A stretch of 43,448 bases of DNA from a virus, in IMG/VR virus record IMGVR_UViG_3300031857_000409, positions 1 through 43,448 of that record. One strand, 5' to 3'. The notes under the pieces are model-generated. The model was not told where the DNA came from and searched no databases. It saw nothing but the letters and a program-made list of their open reading frames with translations. This document shows, in pieces, positions 3,014-18,600 of the stretch; position 1 is the first letter of the stretch; the number at the start of each line of letters is the position of its first letter. The translations under genes and the position numbers were made by a program.

Positions 3014-3133
3014 CCACCCAAGGTAAGATTCGGCAGTTCTAGCCTTACCCAACCCGCGAAAGCGCTTTAGAATATAACTTTTAATCATATTAAAGCACTC
3101 TGGGGCTTAAGGTCTGACTTGTGGCCTAGGCAC

Positions 3134-3182
3134 TACCCATAAAGAGAAAAGCCCCCACTACACTGGCAGTGTAGCAGGGGCT
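3134..3182 (-). terminator. Rho-independent terminator with ATGGGTA tag (copy 1)
   Basis: In the leftward direction AGCCCCTGCTACACTG pairs with CAGTGTAGTGGGGGCT over most of its length, followed by TTTTCTCTTT and then ATGGGTAG. It lies 27 bases beyond the stop codon of the 770-residue gene. It is the first of seven elements with the same plan (stem, T-rich tail, ATGGGTA). Confidence 0.85.
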
Positions 3183-3208: not shown

Positions 3209-5521
3209 TTAACGGTTGGTCTTGCTCTGTTCGGCCTTGAGCGCCCGGATGAACCAGTCCAAAGGCTGCTTTTCGCTCTTGGCAGCGAGCGAGTACAGCC
3301 ACTGGTCGTGGTTGGCACGGGGCCACTGGGCTTTGGCGTTGAACGCTTCGTTGGCAAGGCGGAGAATCTTGCGATTTGTCCTCTCCTCACCGAACTCGGC
3401 GTCCGACTCCTCCAGGAGCTTCACGAACTCCTGAACCCAGTCAGCTGAACGGGACTTGCCGGCCTTTACCTTAGCCAACTCGTTGGGTGCATCCCGAATC
3501 TCTTCAGGCGTCCAACGGATGCTGGCCAGGATATCCGGCTTGGTGATGTTGGCGTTGAGCCAAAAGGTCATCTCCTCAAGGGCCTTGCGAGTCATCAACT
3601 CACGCTGCCTGTGAAGAGCCACCCAGGGCGATGCCTCAACATCTCCTGCAGTCAACCCGTGCATAAGAGCCAGTTCATCGTAGAGTCTGGTATGATACCA
3701 GAATGCATCCACGACTCCATTGGTCTTATTACGGAGCTGAGCAAAGATGTAGTCAGCAAAGTCCTTGATGATCATGATATCCTCTGGAGTAGCCATACCT
3801 TGCTGCAAAGCGTCAATGATATCCTCATTGGACGCCTTGTATTCAGGCAAATAGCCACCCACACAGGCCGCATAGACCATCTTGGGCAGAACTGCACCAC
3901 CGGTTCCAGCCGGGAAAAGCTCAGCAGCCGTGCGAACACGACGCTCATCTTCAAGAGAGAATTCATCACCGATGGTGAGATTCTTTCCTCCCGGCAGAGA
4001 TCCAATGGTAAGCTGATCCATCATCCAGCTGAACTGGGGAACCGTATTGAACAGTTCTTCCCAATCCACAACGGGAGGCTGATCAGTGTACGCATGGAAC
4101 ACTGGGCCTGGCTCGTTGACTGGAATGACGCTCCACTCACCGAAATCATTCGGATTGCGGAGCAGGAACGCTACCATCGTATCACCGATAGTACGGATAT
4201 GGACCTTGACCGTATCGTCCAAGTCAGGACCACCGTGGTCAGGAAGGTGCTTCTGGAAGAAAGCTCCAGGAACCACAAAGCTGTGTGTAGCTTCGTGGAA
4301 GAGCCCGAATTCTCCCTTGGGCATCTTGAAACCGGCAAGCTCCAAGACTTCCTTGGTCATGATGTGAGCGGCATAAGCCCACGGCACTGGGAACCAGTGA
4401 CGCGTCTTGTCCATCCACACACGACCCTTGTCGGCATTACCCAGGACTTGCTGCTTCAAACCATTCACGCTCAAGAACATGAGGGTCTGAGATGCAGTAA
4501 GAGGGACACCAAGCTTGTCAAGCTCAGCGACCTTTTCCTGAATCAATCCAACAAGGCCACGGTCAGACGAGAACCGGGACTCAACATCCTCGTGGAGAAC
4601 CTGCTCGGAATCAACCAAGCGGGTCAACCACTCAGACCTCTTGCCCTCTTTCAGGTCCGCGAAGAAAGTCTTCAGCATTCCATCCAGGGACTCAAGGAGA
4701 GTCTGGTCGTCGTACAGGCCCGACACACCACGATAGATAGCATGAGTGAGATCATCAGACTTCACCGGGATTGCTCCGTAGCTCGGTTCGATGGTTACCC
4801 ACTGCCATCCTGTGGTGCGGATCTCAGACTTGATGTTCGGGTCAAACGTTCTCACGTCATAGCCGTTCATCATTCGCCCGGGAAGAACAAGAGCATTGCC
4901 CTTAATCAACCCATCCGAGCAGAGCATACGGAAGCTCACAATGGCGGTTTTGCCAGAGTGAATCCTCCAGATCTGCTTGGCCCTCCACCGACGTGATGCA
5001 TCGGTATTGGAGCGAATGCACCGAAGTGCAAGCCTGCGACTGATGAAGCTGATGCCGTCAACGTAGCAGTCCGGATAGGAATGCTTGATGACTTCCAGCT
5101 TCAACGAGCCGTCTGGGACGTGGACCCACATGGACGCAGTCCGGACGATCTCAACCAGTCGCTTGCTCATCTTCTTGGAGTTTCGGATGATGAGTCCGAT
5201 TTCCTTGAAAGACGACAACCAGCCTTGATTGCCCTTGATGCGAACCATATACTGGTCCGATGCCGTGCTCCAGCGAATCACTTCACTGGAGAACAGCTGG
5301 TCATGGACAGCGGGAGACTCGGAGTTGATACCCCGCATCTTCCGCTGCTTGACCTTCCTGACTTCGACCCGGTACTTTCCCGGGAAGAAGATGTTCAGGA
5401 AGGCAGCCTGGTATGGGCCAGGCCTGAACTCCTCGATGACGGTTTCGCCATCAAGGAGTGCCGCTGAGGTGATCAGTCGAAACCAATAACCCTTTGCGGA
5501 CTTTACGATGCCGTGAAACAT
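3209..5521 (-). CDS. 770-aa early protein; possible divergent double-psi-barrel polymerase
   Basis: This is the largest protein of the leftward module, with start ATG at 5521 after AAGGAGGTGCACG. It is soluble, mixed alpha/beta, with no membrane span. Two stretches recall two-barrel RNA polymerases of the cellular RdRP/YonO class. One is KGNALVLPGRMMNGYDVRTF (about residues 225-244), which lies in a beta-rich part. The other is HGGPDLDDTVKVHIR (about 445-460), followed by LLRNPNDFGEW. The polymerase signature is D-x-D-G-D, and here it reads D-L-D-D-T. The R-N-P phrase lies after the acidic motif rather than before it, so catalytic function is doubtful or the layout is rearranged. The C-terminal third is helical. 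It is followed by terminator copy 1 and preceded by its own leader hairpin. The gene is certain; the family is only a hypothesis. Confidence 0.8.
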   Translation of the reverse strand: MFHGIVKSAKGYWFRLITSAALLDGETVIEEFRPGPYQAAFLNIFFPGKYRVEVRKVKQRKMRGINSESPAVHDQLFSSEVIRWSTASDQYMVRIKGNQGWLSSFKEIGLIIRNSKKMSKRLVEIVRTASMWVHVPDGSLKLEVIKHSYPDCYVDGISFISRRLALRCIRSNTDASRRWRAKQIWRIHSGKTAIVSFRMLCSDGLIKGNALVLPGRMMNGYDVRTFDPNIKSEIRTTGWQWVTIEPSYGAIPVKSDDLTHAIYRGVSGLYDDQTLLESLDGMLKTFFADLKEGKRSEWLTRLVDSEQVLHEDVESRFSSDRGLVGLIQEKVAELDKLGVPLTASQTLMFLSVNGLKQQVLGNADKGRVWMDKTRHWFPVPWAYAAHIMTKEVLELAGFKMPKGEFGLFHEATHSFVVPGAFFQKHLPDHGGPDLDDTVKVHIRTIGDTMVAFLLRNPNDFGEWSVIPVNEPGPVFHAYTDQPPVVDWEELFNTVPQFSWMMDQLTIGSLPGGKNLTIGDEFSLEDERRVRTAAELFPAGTGGAVLPKMVYAACVGGYLPEYKASNEDIIDALQQGMATPEDIMIIKDFADYIFAQLRNKTNGVVDAFWYHTRLYDELALMHGLTAGDVEASPWVALHRQRELMTRKALEEMTFWLNANITKPDILASIRWTPEEIRDAPNELAKVKAGKSRSADWVQEFVKLLEESDAEFGEERTNRKILRLANEAFNAKAQWPRANHDQWLYSLAAKSEKQPLDWFIRALKAEQSKTNR

Positions 5522-5545: not shown

Positions 5546-5564
5546 GTGCAGAGGCCGTCTGCAC
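5546..5564 (-). promoter_or_regulatory. Leader hairpin before the 770-aa gene
   Basis: A perfect 7-bp stem, GTGCAGA with TCTGCAC, closes a CGGCC loop 25 bases upstream of the start codon and just before the AAGGAGG ribosome site. It is too short and lacks a T-run for a terminator. It is probably a 5' stability or regulatory hairpin of the early-gene series. Confidence 0.5.
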
Positions 5565-5603
5565 GCGGTTTGGGATCAACCTTGAACCTTGCGGCCTATG
5601 GTC

Positions 5604-5636
5604 TACCCATAATAAAGAGAGCCCCCGAAGGGGCTC
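5604..5636 (-). terminator. Rho-independent terminator with ATGGGTA tag (copy 2)
   Basis: Leftward, GAGCCCC and GGGGCTC form a 7-bp stem around a UUCG-type loop, followed by TCTTTATT and ATGGGTAG. It lies about 50 bases beyond the end of the 67-residue gene and separates it from the 770-residue gene. Confidence 0.85.
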
Positions 5637-5685
5637 CCACCTGTTATGTTACCTCGCTATCAGGTTGCGATGCTGTATACAGCTT

Positions 5686-6336: not shown

Positions 6337-6363
6337 CCTGGGTGTGACCTGAGGTCTAAGTCT

Positions 6364-6400
6364 TACCCATGAAAAAGAGAGCCTCCGAAGAGGCCCTCTT
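6364..6400 (-). terminator. Rho-independent terminator with ATGGGTA tag (copy 3)
   Basis: Leftward, GGCCTC and GAGGCT pair around a UUCG-type tetraloop inside an AGAG/TCTCT extension, followed by CTTTTTC and ATGGGTAAG. It ends the LysM-protein gene, whose stop is about 20 bases upstream. Confidence 0.85.
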
Positions 6401-6682: not shown

Positions 6683-6758
6683 GACAGCCTCCTTTCTCCC
6701 ATTTGTAGGCATGAGATAAGCCTTCTTTGGGTTTCGCCGCGATCATAGATCTAGCATC

Positions 6759-6798
6759 TACCCATAAAAAGAAAAGCTCCTGCGTTTGCAACAGGAGC
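6759..6798 (-). terminator. Rho-independent terminator with ATGGGTA tag (copy 4)
   Basis: Leftward, GCTCCTG pairs with CAGGAGC around TTGCAAACG, followed by TTTTCTTTTT and ATGGGTAG. It lies 15 bases after the stop of the 56-residue gene. Confidence 0.85.
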
Positions 6799-6812
6799 CT
6801 TCCTTTTCTGGA

Positions 6813-7010: not shown

Positions 7011-7033
7011 GCACAGGTTTTTCCGTACTGTGC
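7011..7033 (-). promoter_or_regulatory. Leader hairpin before the 56-aa gene
   Basis: A perfect 6-bp stem, GCACAG with CTGTGC, closes an 11-base loop TACGGAAAAAC about 28 bases before the start codon. The loop begins TACG like two of the three GTTAAG-type loops (7415, 8448) but lacks GTTAAG, so it is a related but distinct member. Confidence 0.5.
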
Positions 7034-7073
7034 TACATACGGTTGTTGGGTAAGACCTTTGAGGTCTGCAAAC

Positions 7074-7115
7074 TACCCATGAAAAGAAAAGCTCCCTGCG
7101 CGCATGCAGAGAGCT
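7074..7115 (-). terminator. Rho-independent terminator with ATGGGTA tag (copy 5)
   Basis: Leftward, AGCTCTCTGC pairs with GCAGGGAGCT (one G-U) around ATGCGC, followed by TTTTCTTTTC and ATGGGTAG. It ends the gene for the 86-residue membrane protein 15 bases upstream. Confidence 0.85.
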
Positions 7116-7130
7116 CTCTTTTCTGGAGGA

Positions 7131-7391
7131 CTAGAGCGTCCAGTCCTCCTCTTCGTCCTCCTCGTTGTTTCCGAGGAAGAAGTCTTCCAGGACGCCCCGG
7201 TTGTAGGCGACCCACAGGCCACCTGCCACCAAGGTGACGAACACCAGACCCAGGGGGTTGATGGCCCCCAGGATGGTGAACGTGATCCCCAGCATGAAGC
7301 CGAGGATTGCAAACGCCCAGCTCACCACGGGGGTGAACAGGGCGATGACGACAGCCGCCACGATGGCGACTCGGTTAGTGTTGTTGAACAT
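7131..7391 (-). CDS. Small two-span membrane protein with acidic tail, 86 aa
   Basis: The start at 7391 follows CTAGGAGGAGTC. The N-terminus MFNNTNRVAIVAAVVIALFT opens a first hydrophobic segment. Together with FAILGFMLGITFTILGAI and LGLVFVTLVAGGLWVAY, two or three membrane helices run from about residue 7 to 64. The tail GNNEEDEEEDWTL is very acidic and probably cytoplasmic. It has no enzyme motif and no holin-specific feature beyond size; its place in the early module makes a holin less likely than a membrane-takeover protein. It is a single-gene unit with a GTTAAG-type leader hairpin at 7415-7437. Confidence 0.75.
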   Translation of the reverse strand: MFNNTNRVAIVAAVVIALFTPVVSWAFAILGFMLGITFTILGAINPLGLVFVTLVAGGLWVAYNRGVLEDFFLGNNEEDEEEDWTL

Positions 7392-7414: not shown

Positions 7415-7437
7415 GACGAAACTTAACGTACTCCGTC
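7415..7437 (-). promoter_or_regulatory. GTTAAG-loop leader hairpin (copy 1)
   Basis: Leftward, GACGGAG pairs with TTTCGTC (two G-U) around the 9-base loop TACGTTAAG, about 24 bases before the start codon and just ahead of the ribosome site. The stem sequence differs from the copies at 7922 and 8448 while pairing is kept. Confidence 0.6.
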
Positions 7438-7458
7438 TGATTATTACGTTTGATGATA

Positions 7459-7475
7459 CGATGCGCCGCATCAAC
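7459..7475. repeat. Repeated GATGCGGCGCATC box (copy 1)
   Basis: The plus-strand reads CGATGCGCCGCATCAAC, matched at 7964-7980 with one change. It is nearly palindromic and lies about 20-40 bases further upstream than the leader hairpin in both units. It may be an operator or part of the early promoter; no standard -35/-10 pair can be placed on it with confidence. Confidence 0.5.
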
Positions 7476-7591
7476 AAAACCCTATGTTATTAACATGTCT
7501 CACGACACATTCATGCTGGGGTACATTCGCATGGTTCTCGTTGTCAGTTTATTTATAGTCCCCAACAACCAGGACTTCGGGATCATATAGA

Positions 7592-7631
7592 TACCCATAA
7601 AGAGAAAAGCCTCTGGGCACATCCAGAGGCT
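7592..7631 (-). terminator. Rho-independent terminator with ATGGGTA tag (copy 6)
   Basis: Leftward, AGCCTCTGG pairs perfectly with CCAGAGGCT around ATGTGC, followed by TTTTCTCTTT and ATGGGTAT. It ends the 83-residue gene 15 bases upstream. The interval 7392-7591 beyond it holds the leader of the membrane-protein gene and no other gene I can support. Confidence 0.85.
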
Positions 7632-7645
7632 ATCTCTTTCACTTA

Positions 7646-7897
7646 TCAGGCGAGGTGAATGGTGTGGTGGGTGACCACCGTGTTGTTCCAGTTGGTGTGA
7701 GCGACGATGGCCACACGCTTCCCGGTGAACTCCCGCATGAACCACTGCGGGTCATTGTGGGTGTGGTTGAAGAGGACCGAGTCGGTCTCGCCACCACCAT
7801 TGGCACGGATCCACACGTGGACACCATCGTGTCCAACGACCTTGCCTGTGTAGACGAGGTCTCCGTTGATTGCCGTGTTGTTACGGGTAATGTACAT
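7646..7897 (-). CDS. Small beta-rich hypothetical protein, 83 aa
   Basis: The start at 7897 is chosen from TTGGAGGTAGTC-ATG; four upstream codons in frame have no ribosome site. The protein begins MYITRNNTAINGDLVYTGKV and is made of short beta strands (GHDGVHVWIRANGGG, KRVAIVAHTNWNNTVVTHHT) with many His and Asn residues, probably a small barrel such as an SH3-like or OB-like fold. It has no cysteines. It is a single-gene unit between terminators 6 and 7 with a GTTAAG hairpin in the leader and a 42-base leader repeat shared with the 8421 gene. The function is unknown. Confidence 0.75.
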   Translation of the reverse strand: MYITRNNTAINGDLVYTGKVVGHDGVHVWIRANGGGETDSVLFNHTHNDPQWFMREFTGKRVAIVAHTNWNNTVVTHHTIHLA

Positions 7898-7921
7898 GAC
7901 TACCTCCAAGTAGTATGCTTT

Positions 7922-7942
7922 GTCTGACTTAACCCATCAGAC
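7922..7942 (-). promoter_or_regulatory. GTTAAG-loop leader hairpin (copy 2)
   Basis: Leftward, GTCTGA pairs perfectly with TCAGAC around the 9-base loop TGGGTTAAG, about 25 bases before the start codon of the 83-residue gene. It has the same length and place as the copy at 8448, with an unrelated but still complementary stem. Confidence 0.65.
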
Positions 7943-7963
7943 GTGATTATTGGGTTGTTAATG

Positions 7964-7980
7964 CGATGTGCCGCATCAAC
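7964..7980. repeat. Repeated GATGCGGCGCATC box (copy 2)
   Basis: The plus strand reads CGATGTGCCGCATCAAC, one base different from 7459-7475, again upstream of a GTTAAG hairpin. It is next to the 42-base leader repeat at 7984-8025. Confidence 0.5.
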
Positions 7981-7983
7981 GAT

Positions 7984-8025
7984 ATGCACTGTTTTACTTG
8001 CCAGCATGATTGCAAGGTTCTTTCT
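7984..8025 (-). repeat. 42-base leader repeat (copy 1)
   Basis: This block matches 8507-8548 at 39 of 42 positions. Leftward it begins AGAAAGAACCTTGC and ends GGCAAGTAAAACAGTGCAT. CTTGC and GGCAAG can pair to form a hairpin within it. It lies between the terminator tag and the leader hairpin, where the promoter of each unit must be, so it is the best candidate for the early promoter or its operator. Confidence 0.7.
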
Positions 8026-8064
8026 GTATCTTCGGATCAGACCCCTAGGATGAGGTTGTTAACC

Positions 8065-8104
8065 TACCCATAAAGAAAAAAGCCCCTGTACACACACAGG
8101 GGCT
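8065..8104 (-). terminator. Rho-independent terminator with ATGGGTA tag (copy 7)
   Basis: Leftward, AGCCCCTGT pairs perfectly with ACAGGGGCT around GTGTGT, followed by TTTTTTCTTT and ATGGGTAG. It ends the 100-residue gene 15 bases upstream. Confidence 0.85.
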
Positions 8105-8118
8105 CTCTCCTTCATCCG

Positions 8119-8421
8119 TCAGAGCTCGATGCTCGGACGGGTGGTCTTCTCCTTCTCGATGAGGCCGTTCTCACGACCCCACTTCAGGAGAGTGGTGATC
8201 TCCACCTCCATGGTCTGCTGACCATAGCGGAAGACCATCTTTGCGGGTCCGTACTTGCGCACGTCCACCGCCTTGCCATCCCCGCCATGAGCGGAGATGT
8301 ATGCCCTCAAGAGCTTCTCGTGAAGCTCCTGCTGACGGAAGATATCGCCAAGGCCAGCAAAGGCCCCGGCAATACCATCCATGATCTGCCGAAGGTCCTC
8401 GGCAGCACGGTCGTTGCTCAT
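8119..8421 (-). CDS. Hypothetical protein, 100 aa, first gene of the leftward module
   Basis: The start at 8421 follows TGGGAGGTAGATT. The protein begins MSNDRAAEDLRQIMDGIAGA; the first half is helical (FAGLGDIFRQQELHEKLLRA) and the second half has strands (AKMVFRYGQQTMEVEITTLL) and an acidic/basic tail. It has no cysteines or membrane span. It is the first gene of the leftward block, so its promoter in 8422-8600 should fire first. It is a single-gene unit ended by terminator copy 7. The function is unknown. Confidence 0.75.
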   Translation of the reverse strand: MSNDRAAEDLRQIMDGIAGAFAGLGDIFRQQELHEKLLRAYISAHGGDGKAVDVRKYGPAKMVFRYGQQTMEVEITTLLKWGRENGLIEKEKTTRPSIEL

Positions 8422-8447
8422 AATCTACCTCCCAGTAGTGCAACGGT

Positions 8448-8468
8448 GCACGGCTTAACGTACCGTAC
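8448..8468 (-). promoter_or_regulatory. GTTAAG-loop leader hairpin (copy 3)
   Basis: Leftward, GTACGG pairs with CCGTGC (one G-U) around the 9-base loop TACGTTAAG, about 26 bases before the start codon of the 100-residue gene. With copies 1 and 2 it shows changed stems, kept pairing and a constant loop. Confidence 0.65.
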
Positions 8469-8506
8469 GTGGTGATCACGTGTGCGCATGGTGTGTCATA
8501 CGACTA

Positions 8507-8548
8507 ATGCGCTGTTTTACTTGCCAGCATCATCGCAAGGTTCTTTCT
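8507..8548 (-). repeat. 42-base leader repeat (copy 2)
   Basis: It matches 7984-8025 at 39 of 42 positions and has the same position relative to the leader hairpin of the gene it serves. The differences fall in the loop of the CTTGC/GCAAG stem and near the ACAGCGCAT end. Confidence 0.7.
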
Positions 8549-8745
8549 CCTCTTCTTTATCCTCCTAGAAGACAGGAGGGGACCCCATACCCGGGTGGGC
8601 TCGTTAAAGCTTTGTGACGGGCATAGTATCCATAGGTTCCCCCCCATAAATTTTCCCCTATTTTTACCCTATAATGACTTTTATATATTCTTATATATGT
8701 TCACATAGGTTCGCCAAAAAAATCCAAGAAATATCCCAGAACGAG

Positions 8746-12105: not shown

Positions 12106-13591
12106 ATGAGAATATATCAAATATATATGCCCGAACTTGCAACTTTCGTAAAGTTCAAGGTAATGGAACCAGAGTCGGTTCAAACATTCTTAGATTCCCT
12201 TTCTTTCTCTAAAGAAGAGATGAGTGAGCAAGAATATTATTTTTCTTTTAGAAAAGCAGTTATTGAAAACTTCATATTCAATCTCAAAGGTGAGATATCC
12301 GAGTCTTTAAGACTTATGTCTCGCAAAGCAGCAGAAGCCTGCCTTGATGCAATGTACACGGGCGCAGTTATGCTTAACCCTGGCCTAGACGTTGATGCCT
12401 GGATATCTTTATCATATATGCCGACGGGTAGTTCTTTTAATGATGACCCAATAGATTTTGATTCTCTATCAAAAGACTTTATTGAAAGCCTTAAAAAAGG
12501 TGGAAACAAAAGAGCACCTAAATTTGATTTAGATGATTTCCCTTTTGCCTCTTCTAAAAGAAAAGAAGAACCAAAGAAGCCAAAGCAAATATCCAAGCAA
12601 AAATTCATGGGCTTAGAAAATCATTTGAAGCAAAACATCATCGGACAAGATGCTGCAATCGACACAATCGTTTCTGCTTTAAAAAGAGCACAAGCAGGAT
12701 TGTCAGATGCTGATAGACCACTTGGAGTTTTCTTATTTGCCGGATCCTCGCGGAGTTGGTAAAACACACTTAGCAAACACTCTTCATAAATATCTTTTTG
12801 GCGCAGACATGCCGATGGTAAGAATTGACTGTGGAGAATTCCAGCACAAGCACGAAAACCAAAAACTTATAGGTTCTCCTCCTGGATATGTTGGCCACGA
12901 TGAAGGTGGGCAGTTAGTCAATCAGGTTAAGCAGAATCCTAATACAGTGGTTCTGCTAGATGAGATAGAAAAGGCTCACCCAGATCTTTGGAATACATTC
13001 CTTAGAGTTTTTGATGATGGAGTTTTAACTGACGCCAAAGGTGAGCTTGTTAACTTCAAGAATACGATAATCATTATGACCACCAACCTAGGAAATGATA
13101 AGACCACGGAAAACATGTTAGCCAGTGGAGCTGGGTTTACAAAAGATATTTCATATAAGCTTGGAACAAGAATCGTTCCCGATAGATCCATTGTTGAAAG
13201 AAATACCAATAACGCAATCAAGAAGCACTTCAAGCCAGAGTTCTTGAACAGAATAGACAAAATAGTCATATTCAATTTCTTGTCAGAAAAAGACTGCCAG
13301 CACATCGCTAGACTAGAGATGTCTATTGTTATAGACAAACTTTCAAAGAAGGGCTATCAAATTAAATATAGCGACAATGTTCTTTCGGGATTAATCAACA
13401 AAGGTATTGACGCAGTCAAGGGGGCAAGGGGGTTATCTCAAATAAGAAGAGATCAAATAGAGTCTCCAATAGCCGATACGTTGGTTTACTCTGTGGTACC
13501 TAGGGGTACCACTTTTCACATTGATTATGAGGATGAACAGTTTAAATTTGAGGTTCAAAAACCGCATAAGAAATCAGAGATTAAAGAGTAA
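12106..13591 (+). CDS. Clp-type AAA+ ATPase with novel N-terminal domain; one-base frameshift
   Basis: Two frames join into a 494-residue protein if one base at 12745 is removed (GGA-T-CCT restores AGPRGVGKT, the Walker A motif). Residues 1 to about 165 are a unique domain beginning MRIYQIYMPELATFVKFKVM, unlike the Clp N-domain. From about 168 follows a single ClpA/B D2-type module: IIGQDAAIDTIVSALKRAQ, Walker A near 212-220, the pore-loop region GSPPGYVGHDEGGQ, Walker B TVVLLDEIEKAHPDL, sensor IIIMTTNLGN and the small C-terminal domain. Clp D2 rings unfold or remodel proteins. No ClpP-contact loop is obvious. Its place before structural genes suggests a chaperone or remodelling role in assembly. 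The ribosome site is AGTAGGTGCAAA. Confidence 0.85.
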
Positions 13592-15610: not shown

Positions 15611-18600
15611 TTTTTATAAAAAGCTTGAAGAAACTCTAAAGACACCTTTATCTACATTAGGTGCAACCAACCCGCAGCAACTATCTGCGATGATATCAAG
15701 CAACTTAAGAAATCCAGTTGGCGCAGATCCAAATAAGCTAAAGTTTATGTTTGGTTCTGAAGACGACTTCATGGCAAGGTATCAGAACTTTGAACAGCTT
15801 TACAAAGCTGCTTTGCAAGAAGAGCTGCAATCAACAGCACTAAGTGCATCCAGAAAGAGAATGATCCAAGGAGCAATGGATGCTCCAGTTATAAATCTTA
15901 ATTTAGTAGGAAACTATAAAGCAAGACAATCTTTGATATCCCACCTTAATTCAGAAGTTCTTCCACTTGAGGGTTTAATCAAAAACTTTGGTGCCCCTGG
16001 AGTTGGCATGCCGTCCTCAAACCTTTTTAGAGGCGCCGCAAGGTACATGACAGATATGTTGGGGGGCGGAGGTCATCCAGTTCTATCTTTAATCAACAGT
16101 TTGACATTTAATATAGATCCCACAAAAGCTGGCATAGAAGCTTTCGGTTATGGTAAAAGCAACCTGCCATCTGCAGCTGCACTTCGTGCATCATCTGAAA
16201 TGAGTCAAAGAATTAGTAGGGGCCCAGCTGGTCGGTGGTATATTCGATTTTTCAAGAGCCACTGCAGGTGCAGGTGGGGTAAAAAAACTTAACGTATTTA
16301 CATTTGACGTTGAAACAAGCGGCCTTGGAGTATATGACCAGGTTAGATCACTCGCCGCGTCCTCAATGCAGGTAACAGACAATGGAGCAATAACTCATCA
16401 GGCAAATGCGTACGCTGTTCAGTTTTTGACTCCACAAATGGAGCAGTTTGATGTACCTGGAAAAAATGGATCTAGAGAATCGCTTGGTAAATTTGTTTCT
16501 ACTCTTGAAAAAACAAGTCCAGCAGAACAATTACACGACCTAAATACCGCTCAAGGAAGAGCAGAAGCAATTAAATCGTACAAACAGTTTATGAGACAGG
16601 CAATAGACTCAGATGTTGTTGTTGGCCATAACGTTCAATTCGACTTTCAAAAAATATCAATGTCAGCTCATGCAATAGAGGGCTGGGATTTAGATGATGA
16701 AGCGGTTGATTTATCAAGAAGATTTAATGGAATGGCAGAACAAGGAAGAGTTATTAACACTCTTGATTTAGCTAAAGATTATTTAACTAGACAAATTTCT
16801 GCTGATCTAACATTGGGCGGAGAAGAAGCAACTAGAAAAATAATATCGACAATGTTTGCTCCAGAAACATTAACTCGAGCTTCTATAGGTGGAGCAGCCA
16901 CGCCCTTCTCAATTGGTAATATTGCTGGCCAAACAAATCTACTAGAACTTATTGAACAAAAAGGTGGAACAGTTGGAAGAGACTTAGTTGGCAATTTAGC
17001 AAGGGGGGGATCTGCAGCTCACCAAGCTCAAGTTGACACAATTCTTACTAATTTTATGGTTCAATTTATTCACACTGGAGAACTTCAGTATGGAGAAATA
17101 ACAGGAATGTCAGCTGATGTATCCGCAGCAAGAAAAACAATTCTAAAATCTTCAGCTATTGTACCAACGACAAATATTGCCAGCGCTCAGCACATGTCCG
17201 ATGCTGTCTACAATTATGCAAAGGGTCGAGGGATTGAGGGAGTAAAGCTTACGACCGACAATTCAATTATTGCTTTTTCAAAAGAAAATAACTCATGGTA
17301 CGAATACACTACTGATCCAACAACTGGAGAAACAATTAGTACCCAGTACAATGGAAATCCCATACAAGCAAGAGTAACTGCAGCTCTTGAAGCTTCTAAA
17401 AGAGGAGACGAAAGTGAACTTCTTGATATAGGCTTAAATTATCTTGAACAGTCAAGAGCTGACAGAATGCTGGCCAATATAGGTACAACAGCAAATGTGT
17501 CAAGAACAACAAACCTAAGATCTCTTGCAGCAGGCATAAGCGCGGGAGATAGGGCAGTTGAAGATCAATTAATAGACTCTCTTGCCGCAACCAGAGAAAT
17601 ACTTGGTTTCCAAGAATTTGGAGAAAGACCAGAGATTTTTTCTCAAATGGGATTAGACAGAGTAATGTCAGCTAATAACATGTTGATTAATCAAGGTCAA
17701 GCAAGCGACTATCTGACAAGACTTGCCTCAGCTGGAATAGAAACTGGTATAGATGATCCATATTTGAGAAGAGGTTTTGTTAGCATAGCATCAATAACTT
17801 CTGGTATACCTTTTGGTGAAGAGGGAGCTCAAGCTTCGGACAGTTTAGCTAGAACAATTGTTAGTAGAGTCGCTGGTAGTGGCGTTTCTCCAGCAGAGCT
17901 TTCCGATAGGGTCAGCGAGTTCAATGCAAATACAGGCAGAAAAGTTGGAGAATATTTAAGCGAGTTTGGAATCTCGTTTGCAAGAACACAAACACAAAAT
18001 TATGTATTTGGAGCTTCTGGTGAAGTTTCTAGGCCCATTATTTCAACAGACATACTAAAACAAATAGATATTGATCTAGGTGGCGGAAGAGGCCCTGTAA
18101 AATTTTTGAGTGATGAATTTTTAAGTGAATATGGAGTCAATAAATTCGGTCTGTCAGCTATAGAAAGAGAAGAGGGAAGAGCAGTAAATCTTGTTTTTGG
18201 AGATTTAGCAGCAGATGTGAATAGCGGTGGTTCAGTAATAAGAAGAGACATAGCTGATCAATTGGCTAGAGGTATAACCGATCAATTAGAGTTTTTAACC
18301 AGTGCAGACAATCTAAAAGATGCAGTAGAGCAAGGTAAGTTTGCAAACGTTAATCAAGCACGTCAAATACTCGGCATGTTTGAAACCGAGGGGAAAGATA
18401 AAGTAAGGGATATGATTAGAGATTCTCTTACTAAACGAGGTCTTGTTGTTGGCTCCATAGAGGGAAGGGAAGGGGCAGGAGTAGCTGCAATAATTGACCA
18501 AGTGTCATCTCTGCAAAACGACACAGACGCTTTCCAAAGACTTTATCAATTCTCTGTTAACAAGTTTGGAGACGCACACATAGCTTTCCAGGGAAGAATG

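Follow-up and report, generated by a model that had tools for sequence, protein, structure and literature searches.

Structured leaders of phage mRNAs are of a known kind. The leader of gene 32 of the phages T4, T2 and RB69 folds into an H-type pseudoknot upstream of the ribosome-binding site (PMC3014915), a single pseudoknot that serves one gene, lies 67 nt from the start codon and is bound by the gene's own product, and a review from 2010 regarded it as possibly the sole viral pseudoknot in translation autoregulation (PMC3014915). In cluster K mycobacteriophages, repeated elements are likewise found at the translation starts of many genes: SAS is one conserved 13-bp sequence made of a Shine-Dalgarno core with complementary flanking ends, an inverted repeat with a variable spacer lies upstream of about half of these elements, and ESAS is one 17-bp repeat (PMC3203893). 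The leaders described here stem from the IMG/VR virus record IMGVR_UViG_3300031857_000409, whose 43,448 nt were analysed as a whole (the window) and for which a near-identical second contig exists. Three of them, upstream of the genes at 7391, 7897 and 8421, carry the motif GTTAAG and, judging from their pairing patterns, are very probably H-type RNA pseudoknots; with the same assurance they can be assigned to a larger family of folded leaders. Their nearest known counterparts are the T4 gene 32 pseudoknot in design and SAS/ESAS in deployment. In contrast to gene 32, the leaders of these phages serve many genes, occur in many sequence versions, lie about 15-27 nt from the start codon and have no known binder. 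Unlike SAS and ESAS, their letters vary freely while the fold is kept, and they additionally possess pseudoknots and a terminator-GGGTAG junction; it is the number of leaders, the pseudoknots and this fixed junction with the preceding terminator that are unusual.

Each of the three genes is preceded, on the minus strand, by a hairpin whose 9-nt loop ends in GTTAAG. The closing stems of 6-7 bp are unrelated to one another: GACGGAG(TACGTTAAG)TTTCGTC in the 7391 leader (7 bp including two G-U pairs), GTCTGA(TGGGTTAAG)TCAGAC in the 7897 leader (6 bp, all Watson-Crick) and GTACGG(TACGTTAAG)CCGTGC in the 8421 leader (6 bp including one G-U pair). All three are fully paired, with three G-U pairs in total, and changes on both sides are seen at 6/6 stem pairs. 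A first-pass annotation of the window had recognized these hairpins and the compensating changes in their stems, and had placed them about 24-26 bases before the start codon; the distances are 23 nt for gene 7391, 24 nt for 7897 and 26 nt for 8421. It had not caught that the three leaders have other upstream blocks in common, nor that the first 5-6 loop bases find a complement 7-8 nt upstream of the respective stem (AACGUA:UACGUU for 7391, AACCCA:UGGGUU for 7897 and ACGUG:UACGU for 8421). Because the loop pairs with a segment upstream of the stem, which is the strand order of the H-type, the elements are best read as H-type pseudoknots and not as hairpins with a free loop. Two crossing helices of at least three pairs each, the criterion used here for this type, were found in the three GTTAAG leaders, in the leader of gene 6983 and in homologous leaders of related phages. 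The positions are as follows, S1 being the loop-upstream helix, S2 the hairpin stem, and L1 and L3 the connecting loops:

7415-7450, minus strand: GTTAAG pseudoknot of gene 7391; S1 AACGTA (7445-7450) with TACGTT (7425-7430), S2 GACGGAG (7431-7437) with TTTCGTC (7415-7421), L1 ATAATCA (7438-7444), L3 AAG (7422-7424); RNA strand order AACGUA-AUAAUCA-GACGGAG-UACGUU-AAG-UUUCGUC.
7922-7956, minus strand: GTTAAG pseudoknot of gene 7897; S1 AACCCA (7951-7956) with TGGGTT (7931-7936), S2 GTCTGA (7937-7942) with TCAGAC (7922-7927), L1 7943-7950, L3 AAG (7928-7930); RNA strand order AACCCA-AUAAUCAC-GUCUGA-UGGGUU-AAG-UCAGAC.
8448-8482, minus strand: GTTAAG pseudoknot of gene 8421; S1 ACGTG (8477-8481) with TACGT (8458-8462), five pairs including one G-U, S2 GTACGG (8463-8468) with CCGTGC (8448-8453), L1 8469-8476; RNA strand order (C)ACGUG-AUCACCAC-GUACGG-UACGU(U)-AAG-CCGUGC.

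The hexamer GTTAAG itself is not enriched in the window (18 observed, 22.7 expected), and a stem of at least six pairs is closed at 3 of its 18 sites, which are those of the three leaders. In an ungapped alignment of these leaders, 97% of the cells are paired and 8 of 12 pairs show changes on both sides, two of them in S1 and six in S2 (3 sequences). None of 500 column shuffles matched this level of pairing, and registers slid by 1-3 columns were paired to only 23-39%. The second helix also covaries within the group (TACGTT/AACGTA versus TGGGTT/AACCCA). Loop-upstream pairs number 6, 6, 5 and 5 in four leaders of the window, the fourth being that of gene 6983; by chance, about 15% of comparable hairpins of the window would reach five such pairs and 6% would reach six. 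Taken by itself, the 7897 pseudoknot differs from shuffled sequences with p of about 0.01.

Comparison with related phages revealed how the GTTAAG form relates to the fold. The capsid protein has 531 relatives in IMG/VR, with about 90% identity among the 80 kept; among annotated phages, Bacillus phage KLEB27-3 and Moorella phage MTATph1 come closest (31-44%). In the early regions of about a dozen relatives that were compared, the exact GTTAAG pseudoknot was absent from every one. For the small proteins, direct homologues in IMG/VR were confined to the near-identical contig; two of these proteins have weak relatives in distant contigs, and the leaders there are of other types. The further upstream blocks common to the three leaders mark them as diverged duplicates, and the apparent constancy of GTTAAG results from an S1 strand end and a short loop that these duplicates share. 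The sequence CCUAGGGGyCUGAkCCGAA is common to the 7897 leader and leaders of the contigs G032/G026, G034 and G007, and these as well as a leader of G008 have a pseudoknot at the equivalent position, about 25 nt before the start (for example UCACAGUG-AA-GCGGACA-CGCUGUGG-UUAAACAAUAA-UGUUCGC). In the three distinct versions of this homologous pseudoknot, 100% of the cells are paired, compared with at most 56% in slid controls, and six pairs over both helices are doubly changed (two in S1 and four in S2; 3 sequences). The pseudoknot is thus kept while its letters differ; the loop is A-rich (GGUUAAACAAU...), and the GGUUAA found where S1 meets L3 corresponds to GTTAA in the window leaders.

Covarying examples in relatives had been proposed as a test by the first-pass annotation, and those found favour a structure, albeit a pseudoknot and not the hairpin it had described. 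The RNA-level selection it had deduced from the stems is borne out well beyond its three examples, by the relatives, the polymerase leader and the 5' stems described below. Its suggestion that the constant GTTAAG loop is a protein-binding site is not supported: most of the loop is a strand of the second helix and changes with its partner, and the GTTAAG form is missing in the relatives compared. A broader version, in which the leaders are translational operators for a phage or host RNA-binding protein, like those of T4 gp32, RegA and gp43, and are recognized by their pseudoknot shape or by the GUUAAG/A-rich segment, is unlikely. T4 gp32 does bind a pseudoknot that lies in its own leader, 67 nt ahead of the start codon (PMC3014915), GUUAAG is constant within the phage, and the polymerase leader keeps its CGGCC loop from phage to phage. 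Against this stand the mostly base-paired loop letters, which change with their partner, the relatives, which hold the fold and not the letters at the same position, and the diversity of the genes served, which speaks against simple self-regulation. A gene 32-type leader is a single site upstream of a gene for a single-stranded DNA-binding protein, with UUAAA repeats over the ribosome-binding site; here, genes 7391, 7897 and 8421 have no Pfam match and no match to a single-stranded-DNA-binding PHROG, and the elements precede many unrelated genes, unlike that single-site design. The 13-bp SAS sequence GGGATAGGAGCCC has no match in the window with up to two mismatches allowed, and searches of the window and eight relatives against Rfam gave no match at the gathering threshold and only weak, non-meaningful ones at a relaxed threshold. 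Lacking the features of both systems and an Rfam match, the leaders represent a distinct version of structured phage leaders.

Further pseudoknots and hairpins were identified in the leaders of the window:

7011-7042, minus strand: pseudoknot in the leader of gene 6983, CCGTA-TGTA-GCACAG-TACGG-AAAAAC-CTGTGC.
5546-5569, minus strand: hairpin in the leader of the polymerase gene 5521, ACCGC-GTGCAGA-CGGCC-TCTGCAC, with a possible 3-bp pseudoknot.
7540-7576, minus strand: second pseudoknot in the 7391 leader, AGUCC-UG-GUUGUUGG-GGACU-AUAAAUAAA-CUGACAAC.
7984-8016, minus strand: pseudoknot A in the 7897 leader, CUUGC-AAUC-AUGC-UG-GCAAG-UAAAACAGU-GCAU.
8507-8539, minus strand: duplicate of pseudoknot A in the 8421 leader.

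Similar hairpins had initially been proposed for leaders at 5546, 7011 and 2999; the first two are present and of the pseudoknot type, although 5546 has only three possible S1 pairs, and the one at 2999 was not confirmed. In the polymerase leader, the stem varies among five phages within a constant frame (loop CGGCC, upstream CCG; ACCGC/CGGCC): the five variants GUGCAGA/UCUGCAC, GUGUCGA/UCGGCAC, GCAUGGA/UCUAUGC, GUAUGGA/UCCAUAC and GAUGGU/ACCAUC show double changes at 5/7 pairs. In the upstream pseudoknot of the 7391 leader, AGUCC/GGACU and UAAAUAA are constant, and S2 reads GUUGUU/GACAAC, GUUAUU/AAUAAC (L174) or GUCAUU/AAUGAC (L175). In the 7897 and 8421 leaders, the CUUGC..GCAAGUAAAA pseudoknot has the helix AUGC/GCAU, where a distant homologue in contig G002 (L127) has AUUC/GAAU. 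In the leaders of 7897, 5521 and 7391 and in relatives, a small covarying hairpin (CUAC..GUAG, GCAC..GUGC, CCAC..GUGG, CAAC..GUUG) carries the Shine-Dalgarno core in its loop; 54% of the long leaders hold the core in this way compared with 25% of background genes, a moderate excess only.

All these leaders share a common layout, which runs from a terminator hairpin through a 10-nt pyrimidine tract, AT, GGGTAG, the folded leader and the Shine-Dalgarno sequence to the start codon. This layout is seen in about 20 related contigs and precedes most genes of one early-type region that lies on a single strand, opposite to the structural genes. The terminator stem ends in G directly before the tract, the tract is fixed at positions -12 to -3, and A-2 and T-1 are invariant. 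The pattern TTTATGGGTAG is present in 23 of 25 records searched, on one strand only per record; its reverse has three matches in all, and cellular genomes contain just 56 single, chance-like matches to the junction pattern. Leaders are 36 to more than 200 nt long (median 69); the shortest measure 36 nt from ATGGG to the start codon, which leaves no room for a separate promoter. The junctions of the window are:

8062-8112, minus strand: terminator of gene 8421, pyrimidine tract and ATGGGTAG, start of the 7897 leader (ATGGG at 8071).
7590-7631, minus strand: terminator, pyrimidine tract and ATGGGTA, start of the 7391 leader (7598).
7073-7118, minus strand: terminator, pyrimidine tract and ATGGGTAG (7080), start of the 6983 leader, in which the 5' stem GGGUA..UACCC runs on downstream.
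6758-6800, minus strand: terminator and ATGGGTAG (6765).
6363-6400, minus strand: terminator and ATGGGTAA (6370).
5603-5638, minus strand: terminator and ATGGGTAG (5610), ahead of the polymerase gene.
3133-3182, minus strand: terminator and ATGGGTAG (3140).

Several leader arrays start with a block CTTTAACGAG(c/g)CCACC, a candidate operon promoter, which in the window lies in the divergent intergenic region (8480-8660, minus strand) and is also found in L123, L124, L167, L168, L169, L170 and L173, preceded by ATAAAA and GGGGAAAATTTATG-like stretches.

Across the family, the mean folding z-score is -1.92 (92 leaders), and strong pseudoknots, defined by two strong stems and a total of -18 kcal/mol or better, occur in 25 of 99 leaders compared with 6.8 +- 2.3 in shuffled copies (maximum 14); both counts include homologues and are not independent. 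The 5' stem GGGUAG/CUACCC covaries as well (GGAUAG/CUAUCC, GGCUAG/CUAGCC, GGGCAG/CUGCCC). If only Watson-Crick pairs are counted, a 6-bp partner of its own head is present in 9 of 134 elements, and the highest count among 500 permutations was 6. When the 5' stems were aligned jointly, with two registers mixed, no covariation emerged; after this failure, the inner 5' stems were split by register into two sub-classes, which show double changes at 6/7 and 3/6 pairs, counts that lean towards structure. It is very unlikely that the junctions and leaders are operator or promoter palindromes acting at the DNA level, with an incidental RNA fold. The T-tract-ATGGG is indeed strongly conserved in sequence, but crossing helices with compensatory changes including G-U pairs are meaningful for RNA and not for a DNA palindrome, and the elements are in sense orientation between terminator and ribosome-binding site. 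With their compact pseudoknots and A-rich L3, the leaders are similar in design to small riboswitches. This likeness would suit ligand-sensing riboswitches or attenuators, a function that we likewise regard as highly improbable here, as Rfam yielded no meaningful match, the leaders of different genes share no conserved ligand-core sequence and the genes served are unrelated.

The phages of this clade are large and encode their own unusual RNA polymerase. In the window, its gene lies in the same region as the leaders:

3209-5521, minus strand: divergent single-chain two-barrel RNA polymerase of 770 amino acids.

Neither family searches nor Pfam returned a match for this protein, the phage collection contained no match to it or to the window DNA, and a sequence search of the PDB with the polymerase profile gave nothing meaningful, so that a fold search was needed for its identification. 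A structure model built from 12 relatives (pLDDT 81, pTM 0.77) had solely two-barrel polymerases as top matches in Foldseek (QDE-1, plant RDR2, phage P74 gp62 and P32 gp64; E 5.6e-6), and a second structural comparison again returned such enzymes (Z 12.2 to 9.1, phage P32/P74 enzymes). The three catalytic aspartates of the DxDGD motif are invariant in 12 sequences (DxDD in close relatives, DSDGD in L174 and L175). By its modelled fold and catalytic motif, the protein is a two-barrel (DPBB) RNA polymerase with predicted RNA synthesis activity. It shares its fold with P23-45 gp64/gp96, YonO and QDE-1, at about 10% identity to the phage single-chain two-barrel polymerases. A search for T7-type polymerases (PF00940) gave no match, but neither did its control. 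Distant paralogues of about 850 amino acids are encoded elsewhere in the same genomes (G007 98.5-101 kb and G008 54.3-56.9 kb; L122, L125), and in G014 (L126) the homologue lies inside a frame of about 1470 amino acids.

In P23-45, polymerases of this type rely on promoter motifs of their own and on a 26-nt terminator motif of an unusual kind (PMC10770324), so that by analogy the phage's two-barrel enzyme may plausibly read the junction; no report of comparable leaders in P23-45 was found in the literature. A possible but doubtful account holds that the junction is a fused terminator-promoter, at which this polymerase would terminate the preceding RNA within the pyrimidine tract and begin anew at GGG, the leader folds being secondary. 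The fixed tract with its invariant A-2/T-1 agrees with it, as does the scarcity of sigma-70-like promoter sites (2 found, 3.7 expected); restart after termination is possible for bacterial RNA polymerase (PMC6978380, PMC6978322). In addition, a strong hairpin is lacking in three array-first elements that nevertheless retain the tract and ATGGGTAG, an observation in favour of an independent start or cut signal. The last G of GGG and the bases after it, however, covary with a downstream partner and must at least also form RNA structure, and the conserved array-start block (CTTTAACGAGCCCACC) could be the operon promoter instead. That account bears on the junction, and the pseudoknot finding can hold alongside it. 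If the array-start block is a promoter, this would favour processing, in which cleavage at the U-tract/AUGGG junction would divide a long operon transcript, leaving 3' ends guarded by terminator hairpins and new 5' ends guarded by GGG stems. Such processing seems improbable overall: the junction persists in array-first elements without a strong hairpin, a separate conserved block lies upstream of several arrays and the 5' stem starts exactly at GGG, but the strong hairpins with their 10-nt pyrimidine tract resemble working terminators, and no known nuclease cuts the junction sequence.

Overall, we favour, with moderate confidence, the view that the leaders are folded, in part pseudoknotted and act in cis, each on a single-gene mRNA whose 5' end lies at GGG or directly beside it; an effect on mRNA stability or translation is plausible, though put forward tentatively. 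Several points weigh against this interpretation. The GTTAAG form is represented by three paralogues in one phage and its near-identical second contig, and homologous leaders are non-independent observations. One S1 helix (8421) has just five pairs, an L3 of 3 nt is tight for spanning 6 bp, and the fold energies of the 7391 and 8421 leaders, taken singly, are unexceptional. Many short leaders have no pseudoknot, and with G-U pairs allowed the 5'-stem permutation has little power and poorly separates own from foreign partners. Finally, the case for folded leaders in these phages is drawn from sequence comparison.

In the proposed mechanism of such cis-acting leaders, each would form the 5' end of a single-gene mRNA beginning at or beside GGG, an end made either by initiation of the two-barrel polymerase or by cutting of a longer transcript. 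The 5' GGG would be buried at once in the GGGUAG stem, thereby shielding the 5' end from nucleases. Blocking of 5'-dependent nuclease access by a 5'-terminal stem-loop is a general principle of bacterial mRNA stability, and the GGG stem may be comparable to the 5'-terminal stems of mRNAs stabilised in this way. The pseudoknot or hairpins would occupy the space up to the ribosome-binding site, and a pseudoknot near the start would keep this site open to ribosomes and shield it from the sequence around it. Constraint would act on the fold alone and leave the letters free to change. Recognition of a loop sequence explains such a pattern less well than do protection of the 5' end and insulation or tuning of the ribosome-binding site.

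The window has some further features. Near 8660 the G+C content drops: it is about 53% in the early region on the minus strand and about 40% elsewhere, a step also present in several relatives. Reading frames look interrupted at 12106-13591, 16292-16366 and about 19640; the first is an AAA+ protein split near the Walker A motif GPRGVGKT, and the second contig agrees, so that the split may be real. A collagen-like G-x-T repeat protein of 1190 amino acids (39452-43024) adjoins the tail genes.

Very few leader pseudoknots are known in phage mRNAs, and in this clade many leaders per genome would be folded, a fair proportion of them with pseudoknots. A more far-reaching reading, which we consider rather unlikely, is a new phage expression system in which fused terminator-AT-GGG junctions are the places where a QDE-1-related polymerase finishes an RNA and initiates the following one; on this equally speculative view, nearly each gene of the early region would give rise to its own mRNA with a self-folding, freely re-lettered 5' cap structure of GGG stem and pseudoknot. 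The setting, with its own polymerase, a fixed junction and one leader per gene, opens the question of where such polymerases start and stop, and of how phage mRNAs may be protected and translated without conserved letters. The leaders would also be a source of many compact natural pseudoknots for study or for use in reporters.
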